DNA from: Oscillospiraceae bacterium
Lineage (GTDB): Bacteria; Bacillota; Clostridia; Oscillospirales; Oscillospiraceae
NCBI GenBank assembly: GCA_017461585.1
Contig: JAFTYM010000037.1
Span: forward strand, 62,001-126,000
Direction of reading: 5' to 3'
Length of the DNA stretch: 64,000 bases
Positions 7,119 to 63,676 of the stretch are shown here, one piece after another; the first letter of the stretch is position 1, and each line of letters begins with the position of its first letter. The translations under genes were made by a program, and so were the position numbers. Under the pieces are notes generated by a model. The model searched no databases and was not told the DNA's origin. It was given only the letters and a program-made list of their open reading frames with translations.

Positions 7119-7330
7119 GCTTACGCTTCGCTAAAATGCAAGCATTTGACTAACGGTTAAGCACTGCTACCCGTGCCTCCCTCTGGCGAGGGAGGTTGCA
7201 AAACCACAGGTTTTGACGGAGGGAGAGAAAACTACCCCTCAGTCAGCCGTTTCGGCTGACAGCTGCCCTGACAAGGGGAGCCTTTGACGCTGTTAGCGCC
7301 GGTAATACAAATCCCGATATATCAAATAGT
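7119..7330. repeat. Repeat block after ahcY (hairpin element and CCCTCAGTC-type repeat)
   Basis: A partial AAATGC-AA-GCATTT hairpin lies at 7134-7147, related to the 26-base hairpins described elsewhere in this list. At 7168-7288 is a full copy of the longer repeat: GCCTCCCTC..GAGGGAGG, then GCAAAACCACAGGTTTTGAC, then CCCCTCAGTC with an inner CAGCCGTTTCGGCTG hairpin, then ACAAGGGGAGCC. No gene was seen. Confidence 0.7.
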
Positions 7331-27240: not shown

Positions 27241-27353
27241 AGACTTCTGTATGACTGACGGATTTCGCGGAGCACCGCGGGGGAATACAGATGTAATTTT
27301 AAGCCGACCGTCTGGGCAATTCAGTTCTAATAGGAGCTGAATTGCCCTTTTTT
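27241..27353 (+). ncRNA. ZTP (pfl) riboswitch with intrinsic terminator
   Basis: The leader contains GACTGACGG, a CGCGGAGCACCGCGGGGGAA block and, after a variable linker, CCGACCGTCTGGGCA (27304-27318), close to the pfl consensus CCGCCTGGGCA. The last conserved GGGC also begins an 11-bp terminator stem (27314-27324 with 27337-27347) followed by T6, so ligand-bound aptamer and terminator are mutually exclusive. Known: this class senses ZTP/ZMP, which accumulates when 10-formyl-THF is short, and switches on one-carbon genes. Location 54 bases before fhs matches that role. Confidence 0.9.
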
Positions 27354-50224: not shown

Positions 50225-50258
50225 AATAAGCGGTAAGGTTTTGCCTTACCGCTTATTT
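50225..50258 (+). terminator. Terminator of the phage-like module
   Basis: AATAAGCGGTAAGG / CCTTACCGCTTATT, five-base loop, two bases after the last stop codon. Confidence 0.88.
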
Positions 50259-50370
50259 GTGTGGTGTGTGATTTGACGGGCGATTCGTGAATCGCCCCTA
50301 CAACATAATTTCCACATGTACGCGTTGTAGGGAACGGATTTATCCGTTCCGCTTTTTGGATCGTCGAGGA
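50253..50370 (+). repeat. 118-base direct repeat, copy 1 (with two REP palindromes)
   Basis: Matches 52196-52313 without gaps at about six differing bases. It contains GGGCGATTCGTGAATCGCCC (50278-50297) and GTAGGGAACGGAT / ATCCGTTCC (50327-50350). The two copies flank the HTH-AAA-CYTH gene in the same orientation. Confidence 0.8.
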
Positions 50371-50764
50371 CGCCGGTCCCTACAAGGTGCGCGCAACATC
50401 GTGCAAGCTTTCAAATAACAATTTTGCTGTCACCGCTGCACCTGTCTGAGCGCGGCGGCGAGCCCGGCAACCGGTGCTGCGATTGTTTGAGCCGCGGGGT
50501 CGAGGGGCTTGCCCTCGTGTCATTCTTTGCATACTTTCTTGGACAAGCAAGAAAGTATGGCGCCTCAGGCAGGACAAGCTAAAAATTTATGCCATGGTAA
50601 ATATCCCTCCACCATGCTAACGCATGGTCCCCCTCCCTTTAGGCAAGGGAGGCTAACGGGCGGATATGGAATCCGCCCCTACGAAATAGCATAAACATCG
50701 TGCGATATTACACACGGGACGGGAAACCCGTCCCCTACGAAACACAACAGCCCACTACTATACA
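50371..50764. repeat. Repeat block right of the phage-like module (structured element, minus strand, plus REPs)
   Basis: Reversed copy of the larger structured element at about 50385-50590, with hairpin CATACTTTCTTG / CAAGAAAGTATG (50530-50559). Then an ACCATGC / GCATGGT hairpin (50611-50628), CCTCCCTTTAGGCAAGGGAGG (50632-50652), a REP (50658-50683) and GGGACGGGAAACCCGTCCC (50716-50734). No gene. Confidence 0.7.
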
Positions 50765-50797
50765 CAAAAATCCCCCGACTTAATGTCGGGGGATTTA
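50765..50797 (-). terminator. Terminator of the HTH-AAA-CYTH gene
   Basis: On the minus strand AAATCCCCCGA / TCGGGGGATTTTT directly after the stop codon. Confidence 0.85.
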
Positions 50798-50798
50798 C

Positions 50799-52103
50799 TT
50801 ATATCTTCGCAAGCTCTGCGTTTTTATATGACGGGTCGTCGGTGACTTCGCGAATGACCTTGATCTTGTCAGGAAAGCTTATATTTGCGTCCTCTCGGCT
50901 GAGCTCTATCTCGATTATTGCCTTGTCCTGCCAGAAGGGGTAGACATCTATCTCAAAATACTGGTTTTCATAGGTGAGGCAGTATCTTGTTTTGCGAATC
51001 TGACGCTTTGAAGTGTCTGCATCCATGAGGAGCTTCAGATACTCCTCCTTTGAGAGACGGCGCTCTATCTCAACGCGCTTAAATCCCGATACGGTGCGTT
51101 TTACGGTCTGGAAGTATATGTAGTTTCCGCCGCAGCCGCGCTGACGGACTCTTACCTCATCGCTGCCATCAGATCTGAGATATGTCTGTATTATCTCGAT
51201 ACGGCTGCAGGCAGGGCACTCTTCCAGCCACTTTATGTCGGGATATTCGATGAGATATTTTCTCTCTATTTCGTAGGGTTCGGGCTCGCCCAGAAATGAT
51301 GAGATCTCGGTAATAAGACGCTTCATCTTGCCCTCGAAATCTTCTGAGTTGTCGATAACGCGAAGGTGGGGATGACCTGTCCATGCGGAGATGAGCTTGT
51401 CGTCCAGTACTGCCGCCTCTTCGGGAGTCTCCGTGCGTGCAGAGTTGTTTGCCGTGGTGTAAAACTCCACAGCGCCTTTTGCAGCTGTCACAAGGTGGAA
51501 AACGGCGTCATAGCTGTCGCGCATTTCAACTTCGCTGGTGCCGATAAACTGCAGAGCCTCGGCAAATTCTGCGTCGTTCATATATGCCTTGTTGTCAAGA
51601 CAGCCGCGGTCGCATACGATGAGGACTTTATCTGTGTTCATGGTGCGGGCAGCCTGCTCAAAAATCTTTTCCTTTTCTATCTGCAGCTTGAGCTGACATT
51701 TCTGATATTCAGCGTTGGAGCCGCATGTCCAGGGGGCAACACCGCCTGTTATAAGCTCGGTTGCGGTCTCGGGTATGAATAAAACTGTGTAGCCAAGGTC
51801 AGTAAAGGCGTTCTGTACCCAGCTCATGGCTGTGGATTTTCCCGCGCAGGGTCCGCCTGTGATGACGATTTTTGTTATATCCATGGTTTTATGTCCGTCC
51901 TTTAAAGTCATCAGCCCGTCCACACTTATGCCGAAAACCGCAGCCAGCTTTCTTATCATATTTGTGGTTGGCTTAGATTTGCCCGTCTCCCATTTTGAGA
52001 CGGCTTTGTTGGTGATGCCCAGCATGTCTGCCAGTTCTGCCTGCGACAGCCTGCGCTCCGTGCGAAGTTCTGTGATCTTATTTCCGAAAGTGTAGTCGTT
52101 CAA
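50799..52103 (-). CDS. XRE helix-turn-helix / P-loop (AAA_28) / CYTH triphosphate tunnel fusion protein
   Basis: 434 residues with three domains. HTH_3 in residues 1-65: ITELRTERRLSQAELADMLGITNKAVSKWETGKSKP. A P-loop NTPase in about 75-260: VITGGPCAGKST, with VCDRGCLDN and IGTSEVEMRDSYDAVFHL. A CYTH domain in about 270-434: the EIERKYLI (ExExK) signature followed by VRVRQRG and YFEIDVYPF. AAA_28-CYTH pairs occur in TTD14-like proteins; joining an XRE repressor to them suggests a nucleotide- or polyphosphate-sensing regulator, but no substrate is known. TTG 52103 lies five bases after AGGTGG; GTG 52112 overlaps that site. Flanked by 118-base direct repeats. Confidence 0.82.
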   Translation of the reverse strand: MNDYTFGNKITELRTERRLSQAELADMLGITNKAVSKWETGKSKPTTNMIRKLAAVFGISVDGLMTLKDGHKTMDITKIVITGGPCAGKSTAMSWVQNAFTDLGYTVLFIPETATELITGGVAPWTCGSNAEYQKCQLKLQIEKEKIFEQAARTMNTDKVLIVCDRGCLDNKAYMNDAEFAEALQFIGTSEVEMRDSYDAVFHLVTAAKGAVEFYTTANNSARTETPEEAAVLDDKLISAWTGHPHLRVIDNSEDFEGKMKRLITEISSFLGEPEPYEIERKYLIEYPDIKWLEECPACSRIEIIQTYLRSDGSDEVRVRQRGCGGNYIYFQTVKRTVSGFKRVEIERRLSKEEYLKLLMDADTSKRQIRKTRYCLTYENQYFEIDVYPFWQDKAIIEIELSREDANISFPDKIKVIREVTDDPSYKNAELAKI

Positions 52104-52195
52104 GCTTTCCACCTCTCTTTGTCTGTATTATACCTGCAAAAAATTCTTTGGACAAGTGGCGGAAAGTCGAATATCGGTAGAAAGTTGATTTGCCA

Positions 52196-52313
52196 TTATT
52201 TGCGTGGTGTGTGATTTGACTGGCGATTCATGAATCGCACCTACAACATAATTTCCACATGTACGCGTTGTAGGGAACGGATTTATCCGTTCTGCTTTTT
52301 GGAGCGTCGAGGA
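52196..52313 (+). repeat. 118-base direct repeat, copy 2
   Basis: About 95 per cent identical to 50253-50370 by eye, same orientation, no gaps; includes a GGCGATTCATGAATCGC palindrome and a GTAGGGAACGGAT palindrome. Confidence 0.8.
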
Positions 52314-52590
52314 CGGGTGTCCGTATTTCAGGCGGATATGGTATCCGCCCCTACGGACACGCCAACAGCTCAATGCGTAGTTTATACAAACGTGACGTCG
52401 CCCACGACGTCACGTTTTTTGTATTTGTGGTAATAATATTACCTTGTTATGCCTGCGGCGCCATACTTTTATTGGGCAAGCAAGAAAAGGCAGGTCGTCG
52501 GCAGACATGACAAAGCTGTCGCATATACAAATACAACAATTATTGCCCTTGCATATGATTTATGTTATTCTTTTATCGGAGGCGATTTTT
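52314..52590. repeat. REP, orphan terminator and fragment of the structured element
   Basis: REP at 52331-52356 (GGCGGATATGGTATCCGCCCC). A 13-bp stem AAACGTGACGTCG / CGACGTCACGTTT with T6 (52388-52420) is a plus-strand terminator with no plus-strand gene upstream. At 52445-52525 lies a degenerate piece of the larger element (GCGGCGCCATACTTTTATTG, GGCAGACATGACAAAG). Confidence 0.6.
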
Positions 52591-53490
52591 GTGAAATATT
52601 ACGCACCCGATTACTACGGAAGATTTAAATGCATAGCCGATAAATGTAAGCACAGCTGCTGTATCGGCTGGGAGATAGATGTGGATGAGGACACTCTCGC
52701 CCTTTACGACACCATTGGCGGTGAGATAGGCGAGAGATTACAGAAAAACATCTGCCGCGACGGTGATTGCGCCCATTTTGTGCTGGGAGGTGAGGAGCGC
52801 TGTCCTTTTCTGAATGATAGAAACCTCTGCGATATAATCCTTGAACTTGGCGACGGCGCGCTGTGCGATATATGTGCAGACCATCCCAGATACCGCAGCT
52901 TTTATAAAGACCGCACGGAAGAGGGATTGGGCATGTCCTGCGAGGAAGCGGCGAGAATCATCCTCACAAACCCCTTTAAGGTGAAGATTGTTCTGACGGA
53001 GGACGACGGCGAAAGAGCGGAAGCCGACCCCAAAGAGGAGTGGTTTTTAAATCTGCGCGATAAGATAATCGCCATGCTGCAAAAGCGCGAGCTGCCCGTT
53101 GATATGCGCCTTATGGGCGTTGTCTCGGCGCTGGGTATCGATCTCCCTTCTCTGAGCCCCGATGCGCTCTACGGGCTTTATATTAGCCTTGAGCGCCTGG
53201 ACGAGGAGTGGACAGCGTATCTTGACAGGCTGCGTGAAACAGAGCTTACAAAGGATCCTGACCTTGAGGTTCCCTATGAGCAGCTTCTGGTATATCTTGT
53301 CTACCGCAACTTAAAGGCTGAGGACATAGTGGGCACCATGAAGTTCTGCCTTATAAGCTATCTGGTTATCTGCCATATAAGTGAGGTTATGGGCGGCAGT
53401 ATGGAGGCTCTGCAGGATGTCTGCAGGCGCTACTCTGCGGAGATAGAATACTCCGACGAAAACATCGGCAGAATAATAAACGTGCTGTAA
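52591..53490 (+). CDS. FliB-like flagellin lysine-N-methylase family protein (CxxxCC zinc/FeS motif)
   Basis: 299 residues. The family's cysteine cluster is clear: CIADKCKHSCCIGW at the N-terminus, then CRDGDC, CPFLNDRNLC and CDICADHPRYR. Members resemble FliB, which methylates flagellin lysines, but many occur without flagella and function is unproved. No flagellar gene is near. GTG start at 52591, eight bases after CGGAGG. An open frame continuing 49 codons upstream is repeat-derived and not used. Confidence 0.8.
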   Translation: MKYYAPDYYGRFKCIADKCKHSCCIGWEIDVDEDTLALYDTIGGEIGERLQKNICRDGDCAHFVLGGEERCPFLNDRNLCDIILELGDGALCDICADHPRYRSFYKDRTEEGLGMSCEEAARIILTNPFKVKIVLTEDDGERAEADPKEEWFLNLRDKIIAMLQKRELPVDMRLMGVVSALGIDLPSLSPDALYGLYISLERLDEEWTAYLDRLRETELTKDPDLEVPYEQLLVYLVYRNLKAEDIVGTMKFCLISYLVICHISEVMGGSMEALQDVCRRYSAEIEYSDENIGRIINVL

Positions 53491-53497
53491 AAAACAA

Positions 53498-53526
53498 AAA
53501 ACGGAAGAAATTTTTCTTCCGTTTAT
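53498..53526 (+). terminator. Intrinsic terminator of the FliB-like gene
   Basis: ACGGAAGAAA / TTTCTTCCGT with flanking A and T tracts. Confidence 0.8.
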
Positions 53527-53611
53527 GTGGCTATATTACCACAAAACCGGCAAAATTTCAAGTCTTGTAATTTGCACGGATTTGGTGTAATAGGTATTAT
53601 GGGTGATGTGT

Positions 53612-54352
53612 ATGATGAAACAGAAGCTGAGAGATGCGTACGCAAGATGCTACTATCAGCAGAGCGGATTTCCGCGCAAGGTATTATCTGACGATGCGGC
53701 GGCAGTAATGCTGACGAAAGAGGAGATAGCAGACTACCGATACGGTCTTGCGCCCTACTCACAGGCGCAGATCAAAAAGCATGTCCGCGACTTTAACGTG
53801 GCGCAGGTCATCGTGACCGATGCCTACGTCTCCGGTGCTGCCATGGTTGAGGCTATCCACGGAGCGGACAGAATGGTGTCCGTCGGCGGTGGATACAGCA
53901 CCCTTTGCTCCCGTCTTGCCGCTGCGAAAATATCCCGCTATGAGATATTTGATATCGAGGATGCCGATATTCTGGAGGACAAATACGCAAGACTTGAGCG
54001 GGTGGGCGCTGCAACTGAGGGCATAACAAAAATTCCCCTTGAAGAGGGATTTTTGGAAAAGCTGCGGTTTAACAAGAAGATGTTCTGGGATTTGACAGGC
54101 TGCAGCGACTTAAAGCTCGTGCAGGAGCTGGGAAGCAGGCTCACTTACGACAGCGCTGTGGTTTTTGTTTACAGAGGTGAGTATCTTGAGCTTGAGAAAA
54201 TGCTGTCCGACTGGGGATTTCGCATTTATGAGTACTCAAGCGGCGAGGAACTGGAGACGCGCTTTTTCGATAAGGCAAACTTTGGACCTGTTCAGTATCA
54301 GCTGAAGGTGGAACGTGAAATGAATATGGTACTTGCGGTAAAGAAACCGTGA
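53612..54352 (+). CDS. Class I SAM-dependent methyltransferase (leucine carboxyl methyltransferase-like)
   Basis: About 246 residues. The leucine carboxyl methyltransferase (LCM/PpmP) fold is suggested by RYGLAPYSQAQIKKHVRDF, SAM-binding VSVGGGYSTLCSRL, and the acidic FDIEDADILEDKYARL. Substrate is unknown; bacterial members often act on polyketides or small acids. Several ATG codons cluster at 53606-53617; I take 53612. It is a single gene with a REP-like terminator. Confidence 0.7.
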   Translation: MMKQKLRDAYARCYYQQSGFPRKVLSDDAAAVMLTKEEIADYRYGLAPYSQAQIKKHVRDFNVAQVIVTDAYVSGAAMVEAIHGADRMVSVGGGYSTLCSRLAAAKISRYEIFDIEDADILEDKYARLERVGAATEGITKIPLEEGFLEKLRFNKKMFWDLTGCSDLKLVQELGSRLTYDSAVVFVYRGEYLELEKMLSDWGFRIYEYSSGEELETRFFDKANFGPVQYQLKVEREMNMVLAVKKP

Positions 54353-54356
54353 GATT

Positions 54357-54390
54357 TAAAGGGCGGATGAAAATCCGTCCTTTTGTTTTT
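54357..54390 (+). terminator. REP-like terminator of the methyltransferase gene
   Basis: AAAGGGCGGAT / ATCCGTCCTTT with GAAA loop and a T-rich tail; the stem is the same GGGCGGAT sequence that makes the REP palindromes. Confidence 0.7.
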
Positions 54391-54751
54391 ACGCACAACC
54401 TTACGTCGTGTCCGCAGGAATCGGCGTTCCCAACGGTCCGTTGTGTAAAATCTGCACGATGTTGATGGTATTTCATAGGGGAGGGACTCTGTGCCCTCCC
54501 GTTACATCATGGCAAAAAGTTGTACTTTGTCATGTCTCCAACGGCATACTTTCTTGCTTGTCCAAGAAAGTATGCAAAGAAAGACACGAGGGCAAGCCCC
54601 TCGACCCATGCGGCTCAGACACAGCGCGGTGGGCTGTTCCCACCGCTGGGCTTCCGCATGCCTAACGTTTGTTATGCGTTTGTGACCGCGATGTTGTAAT
54701 TACGCACAACCTTGCGGAGTGTCCGTAGGGACCGGCGTCCCCGACGACCCG
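54391..54751 (+). repeat. Larger structured element, copy A, with flanking REP pieces
   Basis: Main element at about 54440-54715. Hairpin 1 CATACTTTCTTG / CAAGAAAGTATG (54545-54574), hairpin 2 CGAGGG..CCCTCG, a conserved TGCGGCTCA linker, hairpin 3 GCGGTGGG / CCCACCGC, then GCATGCCTAACG..GTGACCGCGATGTTG. The stems differ in sequence from the copies at 57930 and 62665 but still pair. No coding gene. Confidence 0.7.
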
Positions 54752-54787
54752 AAAAAACAGGCGTTCCGATCAGGAACGCCTGTTTTG
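54752..54787 (-). terminator. Terminator of the NUDIX gene
   Basis: Minus strand: AAACAGGCGTTCC / GGAACGCCTGTTT followed by TTTT, just after the stop. Confidence 0.85.
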
Positions 54788-54788
54788 T

Positions 54789-55292
54789 TTATTCCATTAC
54801 ATCGTGCTTATCTTTCATGAAAAACAGCAGCTTTAAATATTCGGGGGCGAAGGGGGTGAACTCGCCCATTTCACGAAGGGACAAAATCTCGGGAAGGGTT
54901 GCCCATTTTACATCACAGACCTCTTCACTCTGCAAGCTGAGAGAGGAAATATCCACATCCTGCTCGATGAGGAAGACCTCGTCAAAGCCTGTGGCGAAGG
55001 AAACGCAAAGGTCAGGGCGAATGCCTGTCAAATCAAGCTCAAGTCCCAGTTCCTCGTAAAGCTCGCGCATGGCGGCGTCGCGTCCTTTTTCACCTGCAAT
55101 TGCGCAGCCTGACAGGGTCAGATCCCAAAGACCTGCCCATTTCTGACATGCTTCGCTGCGCTTTTGGATGAGCATTTTGTCATCCTTAAATATGCAGAGA
55201 TGTATTACAAGACGGTATTCGCCGTTTTTGGGGTGAGTGTCAACGCGCCCTGTGGGGTTTTTGTCAATGTCGTAAAGGTCAATTTTGTCCAT
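54789..55292 (-). CDS. NUDIX hydrolase
   Basis: 167 residues with a canonical Nudix box from Gly to the final Leu: G-x5-E-x7-REL-x-EE-x-GL, read as GCAIAGEKGRDAAMRELYEE with LGL following. The N-terminus (LYDIDKNPTG) is like the isopentenyl-diphosphate isomerase-related YfcD group, which often acts on nucleotide pyrophosphates. Start at 55292, with AAGGGG upstream; its ATG lies one base after the rsmI stop codon. Last gene of trmN6-RAYT-rsmI-nudix. Confidence 0.88.
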   Translation of the reverse strand: MDKIDLYDIDKNPTGRVDTHPKNGEYRLVIHLCIFKDDKMLIQKRSEACQKWAGLWDLTLSGCAIAGEKGRDAAMRELYEELGLELDLTGIRPDLCVSFATGFDEVFLIEQDVDISSLSLQSEEVCDVKWATLPEILSLREMGEFTPFAPEYLKLLFFMKDKHDVME

Positions 55293-55293
55293 A

Positions 55294-56124
55294 TCATAAC
55301 CCCTTGACGGCGGCGTCATAGAGCATTTTTTTGGAAAAGCCTGTCTCCTCGGAAGCGCGCTTTGCTGCGTCTTTCAGGGATAAACCGGAATCGCGGTATG
55401 CCTGAACGCGCTGCAGCGCTGTATCCATGTCAACCTCGGGCTCTTCGCTCTTTTCCGCGCCCTGTACACATATGACGAACTCGCCACGAGGGTCGTGCCC
55501 GTTAAAATACTCCACAGCCTCGGAGAGGGTAAAGCGTAAAGTCTCCTCGTGGAGCTTTGTGATCTCGCGGGAGAGGGTGATGTTGCGGTCGCCCCATGTT
55601 TTCAGCATATCGGCGAGGGTATTTTTCAGCTTGTGGGGTGCCTCTAAAAATACCATGGTGCGGCGCTCGTCTGTAAGCTCGTTTAAGTGGTCGGCGCGGC
55701 TTTTCTTGGCGGTGGAGAGAAATCCCTCAAAGGTGAATCTTCCCGTGGGCAGACCCGACAGAGCCAGCGCGCACACGGCAGAGCAGGGACCGGGGACAAT
55801 GCGTATTTCAACACCTGCGGCAGCGCAGATTTTTACTAAATCCTCGCCGGGGTCGGAGATGGCAGGCATACCCGCGTCCGTTACCAGCGCGCAGCTTTCG
55901 CCCTCCAGTAAACGGGCAAGGATACGCTCACCTGATGACGCGCGGTTGTGCTCATAATAGCTGACCAGCGGCTTTTTTATATCAAAATGGTTGAGAAGCT
56001 TCAAAGTGACGCGAGTGTCCTCGGCGGCGATGAAGTCCACACTCTGCAGAGTTTCGACAGCTCTTGGGGACATATCGCCCAGGTTTCCTATGGGTGTTGC
56101 CACAAGGTGAAGTATTCCTGACAT
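55294..56124 (-). CDS. rsmI: 16S rRNA (cytidine1402-2'-O)-methyltransferase
   Basis: 276 residues: LHLVATPIGNLGDMSPRA, EDTRVTLKLLNHF, ALVTDAGMPAISDPGEDLV, PGPCSAVCALALSGLPTGRFTFEGFL and LEAPHKL are RsmI signatures of the tetrapyrrole-methylase fold. It modifies the ribosomal P site. GGAGAAA precedes ATG at 56124. It is separated from trmN6 by a RAYT gene in the place where a GIY-YIG gene lies in Bacillus (yabB-yazA-rsmI). Confidence 0.96.
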   Translation of the reverse strand: MSGILHLVATPIGNLGDMSPRAVETLQSVDFIAAEDTRVTLKLLNHFDIKKPLVSYYEHNRASSGERILARLLEGESCALVTDAGMPAISDPGEDLVKICAAAGVEIRIVPGPCSAVCALALSGLPTGRFTFEGFLSTAKKSRADHLNELTDERRTMVFLEAPHKLKNTLADMLKTWGDRNITLSREITKLHEETLRFTLSEAVEYFNGHDPRGEFVICVQGAEKSEEPEVDMDTALQRVQAYRDSGLSLKDAAKRASEETGFSKKMLYDAAVKGL

Positions 56125-56144
56125 GGTTGTTTCTCCTTTTGTGA

Positions 56145-56627
56145 TTAGTTGTAAAACTCATCCGTCTCCCATTTTACGGGATTTTCGTCTATGTATTGCC
56201 ACGCGGCATCGTAATCGTGTTTATTTCGTATGATGTGGTCGTAGAATGACTTTTGCCATATGCTTATACCAATAAGTTTTGATATTTGTCGTTTCATTTG
56301 CCCAACTACAGTTGATATTGTAGGGGCGGATATTATCCGCCCGTCAGTTTCGTGTATTGAAAGCAGTAAATGTATATGGTTGGGCATGATTGCGTATTTA
56401 TCCACAGTAATGCTTGGATAATGGACGGGAATATCCTTAATGACGCGGTCTGCTATGTAGCCGTAATCTGACAAAATGTATTCATTTTGCGGGCGGATAA
56501 TATCCGCCCCTACATTTTTTGCCCAAAATATGTGCTGTTTACCCTTTACACACACCGTAATAAAATATGCGCCGACGGTGCTGTAATCAAATTCCGCAAG
56601 GCGGTTATTCTTTCTCTTGTCCGTCAT
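56145..56627 (-). CDS. REP-associated tyrosine transposase (RAYT, Y1_Tnp family) containing two REP palindromes
   Basis: 160 residues. Signatures: YFITVCVKGKQHIF, the HUH-like pair in YAIMPNHIHLLL (residues 78-89), and the helix with the catalytic Tyr in IWQKSFYDHIIRNKHDYDAAWQYIDENPVKW. RAYTs cut and mobilise REP hairpins. Two GGGCGGATAATATCCGCCC-type palindromes lie in the frame: at 56490-56514 (encoding NVGADIIRP, residues 38-46) and 56319-56343 (encoding DGRIISAPT, residues 95-103), in opposite orientation. The frame stays intact through both. The start overlaps the trmN6 stop by four bases, so it is translated with that operon. Confidence 0.88.
   Translation of the reverse strand: MTDKRKNNRLAEFDYSTVGAYFITVCVKGKQHIFWAKNVGADIIRPQNEYILSDYGYIADRVIKDIPVHYPSITVDKYAIMPNHIHLLLSIHETDGRIISAPTISTVVGQMKRQISKLIGISIWQKSFYDHIIRNKHDYDAAWQYIDENPVKWETDEFYN
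56319..56343. repeat. REP palindrome inside the RAYT gene, copy 1
   Basis: TGTAGGGGCGGATATTATCC continuing GCCCG; in frame with the transposase. Confidence 0.85.
56490..56514. repeat. REP palindrome inside the RAYT gene, copy 2 (inverted)
   Basis: CGGGCGGATAATATCCGCCC followed by CTACA; opposite orientation to copy 1, about 150 bases away. Confidence 0.85.
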
Positions 56628-57334
56628 CTGTGATAAATCTCTTTGACCTCGCCGGTATCGGTGCCGTCGGGGGTTGTGAGTATCAGCGGCTTTTGAATAT
56701 TCAGTCCCGGTTTGCCGCCCCGAAGAGCTTCCACCAGAATGAGGTTGGGGGAGGAATCCTGCCTGTGCTGAACGAAGCGGAGAGACTTGGGCTCAAGACC
56801 TTTGTTGGACATGGTTGTCATGACCTCTGAAAGGCGCTCAGGTCTGTGCACCATGCAGAATCTGCCGCCCCATTTGGTGAGGTAAGCGGCTGCCGTGCAG
56901 GCGTCTTCGAGAGTGCAAAAGCGCTCGTCACGGGCGATTGCGGTTGCGTCGTCGCTGACAGATTTACCGCTGCCCGATACAAAATAGGGAGGGTTCATGA
57001 CCACTAGGTCAAAGCTGCCCGACTCCAAAGGTAGCTTTTTATACTCACGCAGGTCGCCGCAGATGACCTCAAAGCGGTTTGTGAGGCCGTTGAGCTTTGC
57101 ATTTTCCAGCGCTGCATCGGCGGAGGCTTTCTGGATTTCAACACCTGTTACGCATATATTCTCATTTGAAAAGGCAAGAAGCTGACCGATAACGCCGCTT
57201 CCGCAGCCGAGATCACATACTCTTTTTGCGCGCATCTTTCTGCAGAAGGCATAGAGCATAACAGCGTCTGTGCCGATATTGAAGGCGCGGTCTGCCAAAA
57301 ACTTAGGACCGCCAAGCCAGAATTCGTTGTACAT
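56624..57334 (-). CDS. trmN6: tRNA1(Val) (adenine37-N6)-methyltransferase-like protein
   Basis: 236 residues: RVCDLGCGSGVIGQLLA for SAM and the catalytic NPPY in FDLVVMNPPYFVSG, as in YfiC/YabB. It methylates an adenine amino group, in E. coli A37 of tRNA-Val; the substrate in Firmicutes is less certain. It heads the minus-strand operon with RAYT, rsmI and the NUDIX gene. GAGGTAAAC precedes ATG. Confidence 0.88.
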   Translation of the reverse strand: MYNEFWLGGPKFLADRAFNIGTDAVMLYAFCRKMRAKRVCDLGCGSGVIGQLLAFSNENICVTGVEIQKASADAALENAKLNGLTNRFEVICGDLREYKKLPLESGSFDLVVMNPPYFVSGSGKSVSDDATAIARDERFCTLEDACTAAAYLTKWGGRFCMVHRPERLSEVMTTMSNKGLEPKSLRFVQHRQDSSPNLILVEALRGGKPGLNIQKPLILTTPDGTDTGEVKEIYHR

Positions 57335-57456
57335 AAGTTTACCTCGTAGAGTTCCGTTTTCCGCAGAAAACGGAATAAAGTCTGATACGAAAAATCCGGT
57401 GACATGCGCGGCGGATTTTTCTCTTCTCAGCCTGCGTTATGCAGGCTGCAGCCTTT

Positions 57457-57482
57457 TCAAACAAATGCTTGCATTTGTTTGA
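57457..57482. repeat. 26-base hairpin between ferredoxin and trmN6
   Basis: TCAAACAAATGC-TT-GCATTTGTTTGA, a perfect 12-bp stem with a two-base centre. Preceded by AGCCTGCGTTATGCAGGCT (57429-57447). Confidence 0.75.
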
Positions 57483-57488
57483 GTAAAC

Positions 57489-57529
57489 AAAAACCGCTGC
57501 TTACGATAATGCGAAGCAGCGGCTTTTTT
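57489..57529 (-). terminator. Terminator of the ferredoxin gene
   Basis: Minus strand: GCCGCTGCTT / AAGCAGCGGT with TTTTT following. Confidence 0.85.
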
Positions 57530-57544
57530 GAGCTTATATGTAGA

Positions 57545-57715
57545 TTATTCCTCTACGATAGCGTCCATGGGGCAAGCACCAGCGCAAGCACCGCAGGATA
57601 CGCATGTGTCAGCGTCGATAACGTACATGCCTTCGCCTTCTGTGATAGCATCCATGGGGCAACCGGAAGCGCAGGAACCGCAGGATACGCAAGCATCAGT
57701 AATTTTGTATGCCAT
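57545..57715 (-). CDS. Clostridial 2[4Fe-4S] ferredoxin
   Basis: 56 residues with two complete motifs, [12 protein letters not shown] and [12 protein letters not shown], in the classic internally duplicated fold. It is the low-potential electron carrier of anaerobes and the likely partner of HydABC. ATG 57715 has GGAGGTAAATATC upstream. The leader contains a CCCGAT-G-ATCGGG dyad at 57738-57750 that could be an operator or 5' hairpin. Confidence 0.95.
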
Positions 57716-57929
57716 GATATTTACCTCCAAAGTAATTCCCGATGATCGGGTATGATAATATATGCAACTACAATTTTAACACGAAAGGATAAAAAATCAA
57801 TAGTTTTTTTCAATTGCCTGAAAAAGTAAATGTTTTTACCAAAAAGTGTGATTTTTGTCATATTTTGTGTGAAGCAGATACAACGGTGTTGAACTGCGCG
57901 CGATATTGTTCGGATATTATCCGCCTGTC
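57716..57929. other. Ferredoxin upstream region
   Basis: AT-rich; it must hold the minus-strand ferredoxin promoter (a CATATATTAT segment near 57760 is the only -10-like part seen). At 57910-57926 is a half REP (CGGATATTATCCGCC). No gene. Confidence 0.4.
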
Positions 57930-58230
57930 TGTGAAATTACGCACGATGTTTATGGTGTGTTCGTAGCCCTCCCGTTTTACCACGGCAGAAACATTCAACC
58001 TTGTCATGTCTGCCGACGGCGACACTTTTCTTACTTGTCTAAGAAAAGTGATCAAAAGAATGACACGGGGGCAAGCCCCTCGACCCCTGCGGCTCAAACA
58101 GGTTGCGATCGGGTGTTCCGATTGCTTAACTCACCGCATGCCTAACATTTGTAATGCTGTGGTGACAGCGATGTTAGGGGACGACGTCTGTGAAAATTAT
58201 GCACGACGTTGATGGTGTGTCGTGGGGGAC
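57930..58230 (+). repeat. Larger structured element, copy B
   Basis: Hairpin 1 CACTTTTCTTA / TAAGAAAAGTG (58023-58050), hairpin 2 CGGGGGCAAGCCCCTCG, linker TGCGGCTCAAACA, hairpin 3 GCGATCGG / CCGATTGC, then CGCATGCCTAACATTTG and GGTGACAGCGATGTTA. Bounded on both sides by a GTGAAAATTAYGCACGATGTT unit. Compared with copy A, both members of several base pairs have changed together. Confidence 0.7.
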
Positions 58231-58298
58231 GGGATATAGTGAATATTGAAGAAGCAATTACATGGTGCAGCTGCACAAAAAATGAACGATTTGTTAAT

Positions 58299-58377
58299 AG
58301 TCAGGAAAAGTCAAAAAACCTATTGACAATTTGACCTTTCTTGACTATTATATAGACAAGGTCAAAGAAAGTCAAAG
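58299..58377 (+). promoter_or_regulatory. ctsR promoter with CtsR operators
   Basis: Promoter TTGACA (58323), 17 bases, TATTAT (58346). CtsR heptads: TTGACCTTTCTTGAC (58331-58345) fills the spacer, GGTCAAAGAAAGTCAAAG (58360-58377) lies downstream of -10, and a weaker AGTCAGGAAAAGTCAAA is at 58299. The arrangement gives tight repression by CtsR and release on heat or protein stress. Confidence 0.92.
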
Positions 58378-58396
58378 TCGGAAAGGATGGACAAAC

Positions 58397-58852
58397 ATGG
58401 CAGCAGGAATGAGTGATATCATTGCGAGCTTCATAAATGAGGTTTTAAACGAGATGAACGGTACGGCAGAGCTTCAGAGATCTCAGCTGGCGTCCCGTTT
58501 CAACTGTGTTCCCAGCCAGATCAACTACGTTATTTCGACGAGATTTTCACCGGAACACGGTTATATTGTAGAGAGCAGACGAGGCGGCGGGGGATACATC
58601 AGAATTACCCGAGTACGCACAGATCCGAAAATGCTGGTGATGCACACGGTAAACAGCGTTGGAAATGCAATTGACCTTAATGCTGCTGCAGCGTTGGTGT
58701 CTAACCTTTTGAACAGTAATGTGATGGATGAGAAAACAGCGCGCATCATAATGGCGGCGATCGGCAATAACGCTTTACGGGGCGCGCCCATAGAATACAG
58801 AGATGCCCTTCGTGCATCCATATTTAAGCAGATATTAATAAATCTAATTTAG
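58397..58852 (+). CDS. ctsR: Transcriptional repressor CtsR
   Basis: 151 residues: MSDIIASFINEVL, the winged-helix region RSQLASRFNCVPSQINYVISTRF, and the glycine-rich wing SRRGGGGYIRI, which contacts DNA and senses heat. C-terminal helical domain to residue 151. ATG 58397 follows GAAAGGATGG. It represses its own operon through the boxes upstream. Confidence 0.96.
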   Translation: MAAGMSDIIASFINEVLNEMNGTAELQRSQLASRFNCVPSQINYVISTRFSPEHGYIVESRRGGGGYIRITRVRTDPKMLVMHTVNSVGNAIDLNAAAALVSNLLNSNVMDEKTARIIMAAIGNNALRGAPIEYRDALRASIFKQILINLI

Positions 58853-58865
58853 GAGGTTTCATGTT

Positions 58866-59273
58866 ATGAAATGTACAAGATGCGGCAAGAATGAAGTGAA
58901 CTTCTTTTATAAATCAAACATTAACGGCGAAATTACAGAGCACAACCTCTGTACAGAGTGTGCCGAAGAGATGGGACTTATGCGCGATGTATTTGCCGAG
59001 AGCCGCCAGATGATGCGCGGATTTTTCGAGGATTCCTTTGAGAGACTCGTTTCTCCCTTCACATTCGGAGCCCGTGATTTCCTGCGCCTCGGTGAGAAAA
59101 GAGCGGCGGAGCACAAGTGCCCTGAGTGCGAGACTAAACCTGAGGTGGATCCTGAGATCGCAAAGCGCCGTGAAATCAACATCCTTCGCCATCAGATGAA
59201 AATGGCAGCGCGAGCTGAGGATTTTGAAAAAGCAGCGGAGATCAGAGACAAGATCAGAAGCCTCGAGGGGTAA
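58866..59273 (+). CDS. mcsA: McsA-like zinc protein with UVR domain
   Basis: 135 residues. Zinc pairs MKCTRCGKNEV and LCTECAEEMG, then CPECETKP with only one CxxC in the second half, and a C-terminal UVR motif LRHQMKMAARAEDFEKAAEIRDKIRSLE. In Bacillus McsA activates the arginine kinase McsB and binds ClpC. Here no mcsB follows; a REP pair occupies the 135 bases before clpC. It lies 13 bases after ctsR. Confidence 0.92.
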   Translation: MKCTRCGKNEVNFFYKSNINGEITEHNLCTECAEEMGLMRDVFAESRQMMRGFFEDSFERLVSPFTFGARDFLRLGEKRAAEHKCPECETKPEVDPEIAKRREINILRHQMKMAARAEDFEKAAEIRDKIRSLEG

Positions 59274-59408
59274 GAGAACCTTGACTACAATGGATATTTA
59301 AAACGGTTCATTGTAGGGAACGGATTTATCCGTTCCGTGAGCGGCGTGGATAAATCCACGCCCTACGAAGCGATATAATTACATTCCCACGTACAGGAGG
59401 AATATACA
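59274..59408. repeat. Pair of REP palindromes between mcsA and clpC
   Basis: TGTAGGGAACGGATTTATCC.. (59312-59336) and GGCGTGGATAAATCCACGCC (59343-59362) ending CCTACG, back to back. They lie exactly where mcsB would be expected. AGGAGG at 59396 belongs to clpC. Confidence 0.75.
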
Positions 59409-61868
59409 TTGAGATTTGAAGACAGATTTACAGAGAACGCCAAGGGCGTACTGAATAAAGCACATGAGGCTGCGACCGCTTTGGGCCACGGTTATGTGGG
59501 TACAGAGCATATGCTGCTGGGGCTTTTAAGCATTGAGGCATGTGCCGCAACTAAAGTTTTGAACGAAAACGGAATTGATGCAGAGCTTGTATCAGACCTG
59601 ATAAATAAAAACTACGAGCGCGGTCAGGCAGGAGAAATGCCTGTGCAGGGGCTTACGCCGAGAGCCAAGCGGGTAATAGAGGTTGCCGTTGCGGAAGCAA
59701 ATCGCTTAGGTCACAACTACATCGGCACGGAGCACCTTCTTATGGGTCTTCTGCGGGAGCATGACAGCGCCGCTGCCCACCTTATCCTCAGCACAGGAGC
59801 TGATCTCAACAAGATCTATACTGACGTGCTGAATATTTTTGGCGTACCTGAGAGCAGAAAACGCCATGCAACAACAGCAAAACAGGGTAAACGTGCTGAT
59901 ACAAAAACTCTCGACCAGTTTTCACGGGATCTGACAGAGCAGGCGAGAATGGGAAAGCTTGATCCTGTCGTTGGCCGCGAGAGCGAAATTCAGAGAGTTA
60001 TACAGATACTTTCCCGCAGGTCTAAGAACAACCCTGTGCTCATCGGCGAGCCGGGCGTTGGCAAGACAGCCGTTGCGGAAGGTCTGGCACAGCTTATAGC
60101 ACAGGGCGGAGTGCCCGAGGAGCTTAAGAATAAGCGCGTGGTGTCCCTTGACCTCACCGGCATGGTGGCAGGTACAAAATACCGCGGCGACTTTGAAGAG
60201 CGCATAAAGGCAGCACTTGATGAGGTGCAGAAGGCAGGAGACGTCATCCTCTTCATCGACGAGCTGCACACCATAATCGGCGCAGGCGCGGCTGAGGGTG
60301 CAATAGACGCTGCCAACATCGTAAAGCCCATGCTGGGCAGAGGCGAGATTCAGGTGGTTGGAGCCACAACTTTAAACGAGTACCGCAAGCACATCGAAAA
60401 GGACGCAGCTTTAGAGCGAAGATTCCAGCCTGTCACAATAAATGAGCCTACACAGGAGCAGTCCGTTGAAATCTTAAAGGGTGTACGCGACAAATATGAG
60501 GCTCACCACAAGCTTAAGATAACAGACGAGGCAATTGAGGCGGCAGTTAAAATGTCCGCACGGTATATAAATGACCGATATCTCCCCGACAAGGCGATCG
60601 ACCTTATGGACGAGGCGTCTTCCCGTGTTCGCATGGAGGTACGCAAAACCCCAGACGATGTGGTGGAGCTTGAGCAGAAAAAGGCGGCAATTTCCCGCGA
60701 GAAAGAGGCGGCGGTAAAGGCGCAGGACTTTGAAAAGGCGGCTTCTCTTCGCGATGAGGAAAAGCAGCTTGAGGAGACACTTGCAAATGCACGAAGATGC
60801 TGGGAGATGGCAGGGCAGGCTAAAAGCCGAACTGTCACAGCCGATGACATTGCCGACGTTGTTGCAGGCTGGACAGGCATCCCCGTTTCCTCCATAACCG
60901 AGGATGAGGGCGAGAGACTTCTCAAGATGGAGGATATTCTCCACAAACGCGTTATCGGTCAGAACGAGGCGGTTTCTGCTGTTTCGAAGGCGATAAGACG
61001 CGGCAGAGTGGGTCTTAAAGACCCCAAGAGACCTATCGGCTCATTCCTGTTTTTAGGTCCTACGGGCGTTGGCAAGACGGAGCTTTGCAAGGCGCTGGCT
61101 GAGGCCATGTTCGGAGACGAGGGCGCAATGATACGCGTCGATATGTCCGAGTACATGGAAAAGCATACGGTGTCCAAGCTCATCGGCTCACCCCCGGGCT
61201 ATGTGGGCTTTGACGAGGGCGGTCAGCTTACGGAAAAGGTGCGCAGAAAGCCCTACAGCGTGGTGCTGTTCGATGAGATTGAAAAGGCACACGAGGATGT
61301 TTTCAACATCATGCTGCAGATTATGGACGACGGAATTCTGACAGACTCTCAGGGCAGACGTGTGGACTTTAAAAACACCGTCATCGTCATGACATCAAAT
61401 GTAGGCGCGAGAAACCTGACGGAAAAGAAAAAGACCCTCGGTTTTAGTGCTGTGGGTGACGATACAGACCTTGACAGCAAAGAGTATAGTGAGCTTAAAA
61501 ACATGGTCATGGGAGATCTGAAAAAGACCTTCAAGCCTGAGTTTTTGAACAGAATAGATGAAATCGTAGTTTTCCACAGACTTACCCGTGAGAATATCCG
61601 ACGCATCAGCGAGAACATGCTCTCAACTGTTAAAGAGCGCATGAAGGCTATGGATATTGACTTAAGCTGCACCGATGAGGCGCTGGATATGCTGTCCGAC
61701 GCAGGCTTTGACCCCGTCTACGGTGCAAGACCGCTGCGACGCGCAATTCAGAGCGCAGTTGAGGACCTGGCGGCTGAGCGGATTTTAGACGGCACCATTA
61801 AAGCTGGTGATACCGTGACAGTAACAGTTAAAGATGGCAAAGTGGACATTGAAAGGAGCACAAAATGA
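59409..61868 (+). CDS. clpC: ATP-dependent Clp protease ATPase subunit ClpC
   Basis: 819 residues. Two N-terminal Clp_N repeats ([28 protein letters not shown]), AAA1 with GEPGVGKT and FIDELH, a UVR-type middle domain ([26 protein letters not shown]), and AAA2 with [16 protein letters not shown] and LFDEIEKAH, ClpP-binding loop, and the C-terminal D2-small domain [12 protein letters not shown]. It unfolds substrates for ClpP. TTG start, seven bases after AGGAGG. It overlaps clpP by four bases. Confidence 0.97.
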
Positions 61869-62446
61869 GTTTAGTACCCTATGTAGTAGAGCAGACAAGC
61901 CGTGGTGAGCGTTCTTATGACATTTTCTCACGACTTTTAAATGACCGCATCATCTTCCTTGGTGAAGAGGTCAATGATACGTCGGCAAATATTATTGTTG
62001 CCCAGCTTCTGTACCTTGAGGCCCAGGACCCCGACAAGGATATCCAGTTTTATATCAACTCTCCCGGCGGCTCTGTCACAGCAGGTATGGCGATTTACGA
62101 CACCATGCAGTATATAAAGCCCGATGTTTCAACGATTTGTATCGGAATGGCGGCAAGTATGGGCGCATTCCTCCTGTCAGCGGGTGCCAAGGGCAAGCGA
62201 TTTGCTCTGCCCAAGGCGGAGATTATGATCCACCAGCCCTCCGGCGGATTCCGCGGTCAGGCGACGGATATCAGCATCCATGCAAATAATATTCTGCGCA
62301 TCAAGGATAACTTAAACCGCATCATGGCGGAGAACACAGGCAAGCCCTTTGAAGAAGTTGCAGCCGCAACGGAGCGCGATAATTTCATGAGCGCCGAGGA
62401 AGCTCTGAACTTCGGTCTTATTGATAAAGTTATTAACAAAAGATAA
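61865..62446 (+). CDS. clpP: ATP-dependent Clp protease proteolytic subunit
   Basis: 193 residues: N-terminal [29 protein letters not shown], catalytic Ser in [11 protein letters not shown], His in [11 protein letters not shown] and Asp in [12 protein letters not shown]. It forms the tetradecameric peptidase. The ATG overlaps the clpC stop codon, giving a directly coupled clpC-clpP unit under CtsR control; clpP is more often elsewhere. Confidence 0.97.
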
Positions 62447-62486
62447 GTTTCTTTCCAAAAAATCCCTTTCTCCTTATTTCTCCCTT

Positions 62487-62526
62487 TTGAAAAACCACCG
62501 ACGGAAATCCGTCGGTGGTTTTTTGT
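62487..62526 (+). terminator. Terminator of the ctsR operon
   Basis: AACCACCGACGGA / TCCGTCGGTGGTT, short loop, six T. Confidence 0.9.
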
Positions 62527-62664
62527 GTATTGTAGGGACCGACATCCCCGACGGTCCGAAAAAAGCGGAACGGATAAATCCGTTCCCTACAACGCGTATA
62601 TGTGAAAATTACACGCGATGTTGCGGTCATAGTTGTAGGGGACGACGTCCTCGACGTCCCGTCG
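62527..62664. repeat. REP cluster
   Basis: Three palindromes in a row: TGTAGGGACCGACATCCCCG.. (62530-62557), GCGGAACGGATAAATCCGTT.. (62565-62592) and GGGGACGACGTCCTCGACGT.. (62638-62660), joined by a TGTGAAAATTACACGCGATG unit. Confidence 0.75.
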
Positions 62665-62965
62665 TGTAAATTTGCACAATGTATATATGGTGCGTCCGTA
62701 GGGGAGGGGCTCCGTGCCCTCCCGATTTTATCTTGGTGTATATTTTTATCTTGTCAAAGCCTTACGGCGCCATACTTTCTTACTTGTCTAAGAAAGTATG
62801 CAAAGAATGACACCAAGGGACACCCTTGGAACCCTGCGGCTCAAACAGGTTGCGATCGGGTGTTCCCGTCGCTTAACTCGCCGCATGACTATCGTTTGTA
62901 ATGCGGTGGTGACAGCGAGGTTAGGGGACGACGACTGTGAAAATTATGCACAATGTTTATGATGT
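62665..62965 (+). repeat. Larger structured element, copy C
   Basis: Hairpin 1 CATACTTTCTTA / TAAGAAAGTATG (62771-62800), hairpin 2 CCAAGGG-ACA-CCCTTGG, linker TGCGGCTCAAACA, hairpin 3 GCGATCGGG / CCCGTCGC, then CCGCATGACTATCGTTTG and GGTGACAGCGAGGTTA. Stem 2 differs from copies A and B at most positions and still pairs. Confidence 0.72.
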
Positions 62966-63217
62966 GCCGCAGGGGACGATGTCCTTGACGTCCCGTTGTG
63001 TATAAGTATTCGTAGCATTTATCGTGTGGTTGTAGGGAACGGATTTATCCGTTCCGAAAAGCCTCCCTCGAAGAGGGAACATTTGGTGCAATCATGCGGC
63101 TCGGTCGTAGAGGCAGGAATAAAGTGAAGAGTGAATAGGTAATTGCAGGGGACGGGGTTCCCGATGTCCCGTGTGTGAATATTTGCGCAATCACAAAAGG
63201 GCGGATATTATCCGCCC
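62966..63217. repeat. REP cluster ending in the stop codon of the phosphodiesterase gene
   Basis: Palindromes at 62972-62996, 63031-63055, CCTCCCTCGAAGAGGGA at 63062-63078, and 63146-63172, then GGGCGGATATTATCCGCCCC (63200-63219). The last runs into the minus-strand gene, whose TAG stop is the TAG of the REP's TGTAGGGG end. Confidence 0.75.
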
Positions 63218-63676
63218 CTACAAACTCTTTATCTCATAACTTACCTTACCGCTGTCAAGCTCCAGCACACAATAGGTGGCACGGCTTGCTCCCACAGAGC
63301 CGGGGTTAATTATATACATACCTTCAAATTCCTGCGTGTGAGCCACATGGGTGTGCCCGTAGAGCAGGATATCGACCTCGTTATACATGGCGTTTGTCAC
63401 AAGGGAATCGAGGCTGTATTTGACGTTGAACCTGTGTCCGTGAACCATCATAATGCGAAGATACTCGCATATAAATTCTTCTGTTTCAAGCTCTCCGGCT
63501 CTGTCACAGTTGCCCTTGACAGCGCGAAGGGGGATTTCGGGAAATCTTTGGCGAAGCTCGCGGCAATCTGTGTGGTGATCGCCCAAATGCAGTATCATAT
63601 CGGGCGTTTCAGAAACTACGGCTGTGAGCATATTTTGGATATTTCCGTGTGAATCGGACATTACGAGAATTTTCAT
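63218..63676 (-). CDS. YfcE/MJ0936-type metallophosphodiesterase
   Basis: 152 residues: metal ligands in MSDSHGN, LHLGDHHTD, VKGNCDR, MMVHGHRF and YGHTHVA give the full di-metal phosphoesterase site. Family members hydrolyse phosphodiesters; the natural substrate is unknown. ATG 63676 has GGAGGTTCCT upstream; an open frame 26 codons further out is not used. The stop codon lies inside a REP palindrome. Confidence 0.9.
   Translation of the reverse strand: MKILVMSDSHGNIQNMLTAVVSETPDMILHLGDHHTDCRELRQRFPEIPLRAVKGNCDRAGELETEEFICEYLRIMMVHGHRFNVKYSLDSLVTNAMYNEVDILLYGHTHVAHTQEFEGMYIINPGSVGASRATYCVLELDSGKVSYEIKSL

Follow-up and report, generated by a model that had tools for sequence, protein, structure and literature searches.

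A patchily spread family of short repeats with a predicted pseudoknot module in Oscillospiraceae, resembling small mobile elements in layout

What is the structured repeat that recurs within 13 kb of an Oscillospiraceae genome, and which of its strands carries the fold? The repeat lies in a stretch of 64,000 nucleotides (hereafter the window; assembly GCA_017461585.1, contig JAFTYM010000037.1, positions 62,001 to 126,000, here written C22:62001-126000), for which an earlier note had described a single element of 200-300 bases in four to five copies, with stems that change sequence and still pair. We found that the repeat belongs to a structured, multi-copy and patchily spread family. With a probability of roughly 0.55, this family consists of short non-autonomous mobile elements, similar in layout to the doublets of repetitive extragenic palindromes (REP) known as REPINs, in which the single-stranded fold would be the recognised part.

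The element is more abundant than had been noted. The genome, from a gut-type bacterium, comprises 2.07 Mb in 54 contigs and is 79% complete. Using the copy near 57.9 kb as query (C22:119900-120250, window 57900-58250), blastn gave 28 matches in this genome at E<=1e-3, including the query and one match of merely 41 bases of flank. A covariance model of the kind suggested in the earlier note, built from 11 own copies (R1), gave 30 matches at the same threshold, including partial copies, as well as 5 weaker matches. The five places named before all hold the element, with the quoted linkers and stem pairs. The copies do not represent one single element; they have a 5' module in common, to which at least four different 3' parts are joined (by eye).

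On the strand read in the earlier note (+), the module consists of P0, P1, a purine linker, in most modules a pairing strand of 4-5 nt, and P2, followed by a type-specific domain. P0 is a mini-hairpin of 3 bp (GTC-TCC-GAC, GCC-TCC-GGC, TGC-TCC-GCA or CAC-TCC-GTG), P1 is a hairpin of 10-15 bp whose 5' arm includes a C/T run, and the linker is a purine stretch, CAAAGAA and variants. The order P0-P1-linker-P2 is present in nearly all own copies. In most of them the P1 loop is complementary to the 4 nt directly before P2, and this pseudoknot core is a feature that the earlier note overlooked. By eye, the two strands change together in the own copies (TGTC/GACA, CGCC/GGCG, TGCC/GGCA, GTTTG/CAAAC).

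The 57.9-kb copy illustrates the plan, all on the + strand. By reading, P0 is GTC-tgcc-GAC at 58008..58017, with GCC/GGC, TGC/GCA or CAC/GTG arms in other copies and genomes. The P1 hairpin, CACTTTTCTTA cttgtc TAAGAAAAGTG, spans 58023..58050 (helix 1 of the covariation count below). The pseudoknot would be formed by TGTC in the P1 loop (58036..58039) and GACA just before P2 (58062..58065), which are helix 2 and enter the redeal and fixed-register tests. Between them, the linker with AAAAGAA (58051..58060) mirrors the polypurine arm of P1 and is the proposed third strand of a triple helix, as scored in the mirror test. P2, CGGGGGC aag CCCCTCG, lies at 58066..58082 (by reading), and the P3 domain at 58088..58138 has an outer helix TGCGGC/ACCGCA and an inner helix GCGATCGG/CCGATTGC (helices 3 and 4).

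Compensatory change, as claimed for the stems, was borne out in the own copies. Pairing was counted over P1, the pseudoknot and P3 in 17 aligned full copies (540 cells); P2 was excluded because MAFFT put its alleles out of register, and among the 28 excised copies the count also left out 6 of type B and another 5 that were truncated or had different 3' parts. Standard pairs occupied 93.1% of the cells versus 86.5% after shuffling, and none of 500 shuffles reached this value. Both-sided changes affected 12 pairs (shuffled mean 5.9) and 35 cells (mean 9.3), and sliding the partners lowered pairing to 31-48%. Further pair types showed no excess in these 17 copies (24 versus 22.5 shuffled), and up to three of the 17 were unpaired at one of the four pseudoknot pairs.

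The pseudoknot was also assessed on modules from many genomes. These were gathered through P0 and P1 alone, blind to loop and linker. Of 105 distinct modules, which include a few chance hairpins, the five lacking an A-rich linker were dropped; the remaining 100 yielded 96 unique combinations of loop and downstream sequence for scoring. At least 4 complementary nt were found in 60 of the 96, whereas 2000 redeals of the partners gave a mean of 19.3 and a maximum of 31. With one module per loop the count was 47 of 72 (redeals: mean 14.6, maximum 24; letter shuffles: mean 16.8, maximum 27). The complementary strings numbered 36, several of them nested and some presumably due to chance. In a fixed register, all four positions paired in 14 of 25 hand-set modules (redealt mean 2.6, maximum 9) and at least three in 19 of 25 (redeals 7.5); the register was picked on the same modules that it scores, and some of the misses reflect placement of the P2 border. 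Judged by covariation, the predicted pairing of the loop with its flanking strand is upheld across genomes that use other letters. Together with the covariation among own copies and the retention of one plan under different letters, this makes the case for selected secondary structure stronger than originally proposed.

A second regularity concerns the linker. Its mirror image matched the 3' arm of P1 with a mean match of 5.82, compared with 4.88 after redealing (maximum 5.18 of 1000) and 5.04 for the unmirrored arm; the mirrored match was better in 50 of 74 modules, equal in 20 and worse in 4. When each of the 29 purine tracts was represented by a single module, the values were 5.90 versus 4.82, and 0 of 2000 redeals were as high. 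On the complement of the + strand (R), the linker is a pyrimidine tract that runs parallel to the purine arm and matches it, which is the register of a pyrimidine-motif triplex in H-type pseudoknots. We infer that such a triple helix may form. A purine-motif triplex on the + strand was set aside by reasoning, because about 7 nt would not suffice both for the upper triplex and for bridging the 5 bp below it.

The R strand is also favored by other signs. Of the internal P1 mismatches, collapsed per genome by hand, 17 were A.C or C.A, which become G.U pairs on R, and 3 were G.T; the two-sided p of 0.003 is generous, since the A.C cases are partly of common ancestry. On R, consensus folds (alifold) had the lower energy for type A (-41.8 versus -34.1) and type B (-47.3 versus -44.0) of the own genome, and for the copies of two other genomes, G099 (-60.5 versus -59.2) and G070 (-70.6 versus -64.9). 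Strand by position gave nothing evident in a further genome, G104, whose origin was not located. An RNA read from R is thus more likely than the other strand or DNA, although the strand test leans rather than decides. The alternative left by the earlier note, RNA or a mobile hairpin of single-stranded DNA, leans in this way toward RNA; the case for mobility is indirect.

That case comes from the distribution of the family. Blastn gave no match in 59 relatives, since the related modules, which the covariance model did find, differ in letters; nor did blastn match phages or plasmids. R1 matched 29 of the 199 further family genomes at E<=0.001, under stricter filters that lose weak matches and with about 0.2 genome expected by chance; the weakest carriers, G140 (9.8e-4) and G168 (6e-4), are to be treated with care. 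At the one locus inspected per carrier, the plan was mostly kept with different letters; P1 was set by hand at eight loci, one locus (L091) was added by hand, and another (L093) is without detectable P1. Using a model of P0-P1-P2 (R2) at E<=1e-4, only two of 299 genomes of the phylum, our own and G092 of the same family, had a match and 297 had none, in a search with strict filters and a model tuned to its own family. A scan of 84,980 species for the P0-P1-linker DNA pattern gave 53 stretches in 19 assemblies, 18 of which are metagenome-assembled genomes (MAGs) of Clostridia or other Bacillota, and one of Latescibacterota; six further stretches lie in five viral contigs. The earlier note's mention of similar repeats in distant phyla finds little support for this module. 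The single Latescibacterota module (L200, JABIFK), far outside Clostridia, has a predicted pseudoknot ACGG/CCGT.

In some genomes similar copies are numerous. At E<=0.01, R2 gave 66 matches in G104, a single contig of 4.3 Mb over most of which they are distributed, 34 in G151 and 41 in G092. None of four genus mates (81-95% complete) had a match at E<=0.001. Weaker R2 matches in three of these mates were rejected: a lone AT-rich hairpin in G002 (E 0.0057), an open reading frame (ORF) in G001 (E 0.2) and a terminator-like hairpin in G003 (E 0.44), none with a module. The patchy spread and the many similar copies in some genomes suggest that the copies have moved. The element is short and, as judged by eye from insertions and deletions, non-coding.

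The arrangement of modules points the same way. Among 276 aligned R2 matches, 249 were at least 55 nt long, from 153 loci with some redundancy among them. Neighboring modules not more than 700 bases apart were tail-to-tail in 56 cases, head-to-head in 13 and in the same direction in 5. The opposed units have an outer span of mostly 290-690 bp, chiefly 400-550, and a second, opposed module is present at 12 of 14 G092 loci, where the outer ends are near-identical in some copies and different in others (by eye). In the G092 copies L224-L250, a middle part of about 350 nt is strongly variable with some blocks kept and is possibly a further structured domain. One viral contig (L221, IMGVR_UViG_2667527889_000003) holds two opposed modules at 6530-7220, forming an inverted repeat of about 690 bases, flanked on both sides by GGCCCCCGC..GCGGGGCC hairpins. 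Copies in G099 and G104 are single-module and one-ended, with ends that are sharp by eye (13 aligned G099 copies). The G104 element (L252-L271, 20 copies) is about 380 nt long, frequently has a TCATTGCGAGG..GGCAATCC repeat on one side and a GTAG palindrome on the other, and differs among copies by presence or absence of whole hairpins (by eye).

Many copies lie directly 3' of hairpins. A hairpin of at least 7 bp ended not more than 12 nt upstream of 16 of 24 own copies, compared with 3.25% of random stretches (4 of the 28 copies, without recognisable start, were dropped). GTAG occurs within 38-48 nt upstream of 17 of the 24, although by eye one of these, L022_4627m, has no GTAG palindrome and the letters are there by chance. 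In the window, GTAG-type palindromes on the + strand stand directly 5' of the 54.5-kb copy (54475..54502, CATAG here) and of the 62.7-kb copy (62698..62724). In G099 and G104 the upstream neighbor is frequently another repeat (by eye). Target choice or a shared unit would each account for this adjacency.

Taken together, we propose an H-type pseudoknot fold for the R strand, 5'-P2-PK-UUCUUU-P1-(PK in loop)-P1-P0-3' (PK, pseudoknot strand), in which the pyrimidine linker would occupy the deep groove of P1 and form a triple helix of U.A-U and C+.G-C triples. This single-stranded fold, RNA likelier than DNA, would be bound by a putative trans-acting enzyme at each end of the unit, and the unit would thereby be copied or moved. 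Copies would settle directly next to other hairpin repeats, and single-module copies may be fragments or one-ended insertions.

Besides the shared ancestry of P1 mismatches, several observations weigh against this proposal. Fewer than 4 complementary nt were found in 36 of the 96 modules, and about 19 are expected to reach that number by chance. The triple helix is known as a sequence pattern only. In G104 the consensus fold is lower on the + strand (-54.9 versus -49.4), which leaves R the lower strand in four of five sets. G.U pairs on the + strand occur in P3 of own copies (helix 4), and P2 mismatches across genomes are near even (5 A.C versus 3 G.T or T.G). Neither a transposition event nor an empty site or a target duplication came to light; the empty-site comparison was made with the genus mates, in which the gene order around clpP is not the same, and no target-site duplication is visible by eye in the aligned G099 and G104 copies. 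Finally, modules 700-5000 bases apart were tail-to-tail in 2 of 12 cases, an absence of excess that gives no sign of a longer, gene-bearing autonomous unit, with only 58 of the 153 loci reaching 6 kb. The two tail-to-tail pairs, L201 3088-6678 and L029 1767-6437, have modules 3.4 and 4.5 kb apart, enclose ORFs whose longest are 459 and 308 aa, and are possibly chance neighbors.

The alternative that survives best, although we consider it unlikely, is that the copies are RNA elements of untranslated regions (UTRs) that are useful to the host, in stability, termination or protein binding, and were spread by recombination and not as transposons. The intergenic position of the copies is in its favor: with mechanical ORFs (80-aa limit) on both sides, 8 of 20 own copies lay between convergent and none between divergent ORFs (2 of 22 were not judgeable), although the 57.9-kb copy is truly divergent, because its ferredoxin neighbor of 56 aa falls below the limit. 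The fold energies, which prefer one strand in four of the five sets, agree with it as well. On the other hand, orientation to adjacent genes is unbiased (6 same, 6 opposite, 8 convergent), the spread is patchy with no match at E<=0.001 in the four genus mates, and opposed pairs are ill-suited to be parts of 3' UTRs. A bolder version of the mobile reading is somewhat more doubtful still, namely that these are a new class of mobile elements moving via RNA, with triple-helix pseudoknot ends facing outward on R, a putative reverse transcriptase or RNA-guided enzyme, and copies set beside DNA hairpins.

Could the element instead be single-stranded DNA moved by a REP-associated tyrosine transposase (RAYT, Y1) together with the adjoining GTAG palindromes, as an oversized REPIN or bacterial interspersed mosaic element (BIME)? 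A RAYT-like gene lies in the window at 56145..56627 on the - strand (NF047646, E 3.8e-16, under its cut-off; PDB 4er8, E 2.1e-6; no Pfam match at 0.001), and the own genome has four RAYT matches. GTAG precedes most own copies, as given above, and REPINs are themselves opposed doublets according to PMC3116915. Of 31 carriers, 19 had a RAYT match at E<=0.001, compared with 11 of 31 non-carriers (p 0.07), which leaves room for an association. Yet 12 of the 31 carriers gave no RAYT match at this threshold. Six of these (G069, G070, G130, G161, G182, G194) are at least 96% complete, and G070 has at least 16 copies. Completeness is 68-82% in the remaining six, where absence is weak evidence. The 5' neighbor in G104 and G099 is moreover often another repeat. 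Apparently, some carriers do without RAYT; a weak association remains, and we regard movement by RAYT, with the gene in the window as a candidate, as rather improbable. With respect to the question whether the ends coincide with RAYT targets, own copies do adjoin GTAG palindromes, but the 12 carriers above gave no RAYT match. No other candidate for the mover emerged, transposase, nuclease and reverse-transcriptase families having been left unsearched beyond the look for Y1 in the own genome.

It is very improbable that the modules are guide-type RNA ends of IS200/IS605-like elements, similar to HEARO or omega-RNA, that have lost their nuclease. They would share with HEARO and omega-RNA the nature of a multi-copy structured RNA of a mobile element, non-coding, with a pseudoknot at the end and facing outward on R. 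The ends of IS200/IS605 elements are not known to be of the opposed kind, unlike those found here. At about 690 bp or less, the opposed units could not accommodate such a nuclease gene; among longer units there was no excess, and no nuclease was seen, TnpB and IscB not having been searched for. The element also has no match in Rfam, a library in which HEARO is presumably present. Least probable of all is that the pattern reflects decaying old DNA palindromes or an artefact of assembly, with a fold that is not under selection. Copies near several contig ends might speak for this; against it stand the 66 matches in the single-contig genome, the pseudoknot and mirror statistics over different sequences, and the covariation among own copies.

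How does the proposed mobile family compare with known systems? No element match was found in Rfam release 15 at the curated scores, in the window and at 8 loci of other genomes, and relaxed scores gave only sub-threshold matches close to the element. Among the titles and abstract openings that searches of the open-licence literature listed, none describes such a repeat family. The closest system in layout is that of the REPINs, opposed REP doublets for which compensatory changes are reported (PMC3116915). Like REPINs and BIMEs, the present element is non-coding, intergenic and multi-copy, often in opposed pairs and with compensatory changes. Opposed modules are common here (56 versus 13 versus 5), yet the module is not a REP palindrome: it is about 80 nt long with a predicted pseudoknot and a proposed triplex, in contrast to a palindrome of 20-40 bp, its opposed units mostly span 290-690 bp, and the tie to RAYT is a weak association only. 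Miniature inverted-repeat transposable elements (MITEs) are likewise short, non-coding and partly two-ended, as well as mobile-looking, but the ends described here are conserved in fold and not in letters, and no target duplication was seen.

Telomerase RNA contains an H-type pseudoknot with a triple helix. So does the guanidine-III riboswitch, as reported in PMC5696562. The proposed R fold resembles both in that the linker crosses the deep groove and its pyrimidines match the purine arm in parallel. It differs in being a dispersed repeat, with a stem 1 of 4-5 bp and a stem 2 of 10-15 bp, and is not known to have a ligand or host gene. GTAG-tagged REPs (PMC3733652) resemble the palindromes that directly adjoin most own copies; the element itself is no such palindrome. 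In this 2013 survey, the terms Firmicutes, Clostridi, Faecalibacterium and Ruminococc have 0 occurrences, so that the GTAG repeats seen here would be in a further phylum.

Short dispersed bacterial repeats are usually portrayed as plain palindromes. Ends that hold a predicted pseudoknot over varied letters would be a natural experiment on a mobilising enzyme that reads shape and not letters, and would open a direct test of RNA versus single-stranded DNA as the form in which such repeats act. The family adds a structured element without match in Rfam 15, which the models R1 and R2 could detect elsewhere, and suggests small jumping elements of a class that has received little study and is recognised through single-strand shape.

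Within the window, three complete type A copies lie on the + strand. The query copy (57966..58175; R1 L047, E 5e-29) neighbors a ferredoxin-type gene (57545-57715, -) and ctsR (Fer4 and CtsR matches). The copy at 62725..62925 (P1 at 62771-62800; R1 L041; blastn C22:124776-124978, window 62776-62978) neighbors clpP and a phosphoesterase gene (CLP_protease and Metallophos_2 matches). The third is at 54493..54695 (P1 at 54545-54574; R1 L043; blastn C22:116493-116695, the same interval). A reversed type B copy, with another 3' part, occupies 50395..50602 on the - strand (P1 at 50530-50559; R1 L056; blastn C22:112484-112601, window 50484-50601; far end by eye). At 52445..52525, without assigned strand, P0 and P1 arms of two opposed copies seem to be fused with nothing between them (L025_3514m and by eye; reversed blastn fragment C22:114465-114513, window 52465-52513). 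A sixth copy is at C22:126613-126819, 613 bases past the window end. All five R1 copies (E<=1e-3) of this 127-kb contig fall within 14.2 kb at one end (G000:C22:112450-126782), with P 0.0007 under uniform placing in a post hoc test.

By eye, GTAG palindromes are numerous at 50240-63230, GTAGGGGCGGAT..ATCCGCCC and others, for example at 50656-50683, 52265-52300, 62538-62590 and 63190-63222, and GTAG-type palindromes also lie inside the RAYT-like frame (56320-56344 and 56490-56514). One ORF at 50799-52112 (-) combines HTH, AAA_28 and CYTH domains, the CYTH match being just under its cut-off. A ZMP/ZTP riboswitch (RF01750, 65.3 bits) is present at 27241-27324 on the + strand.

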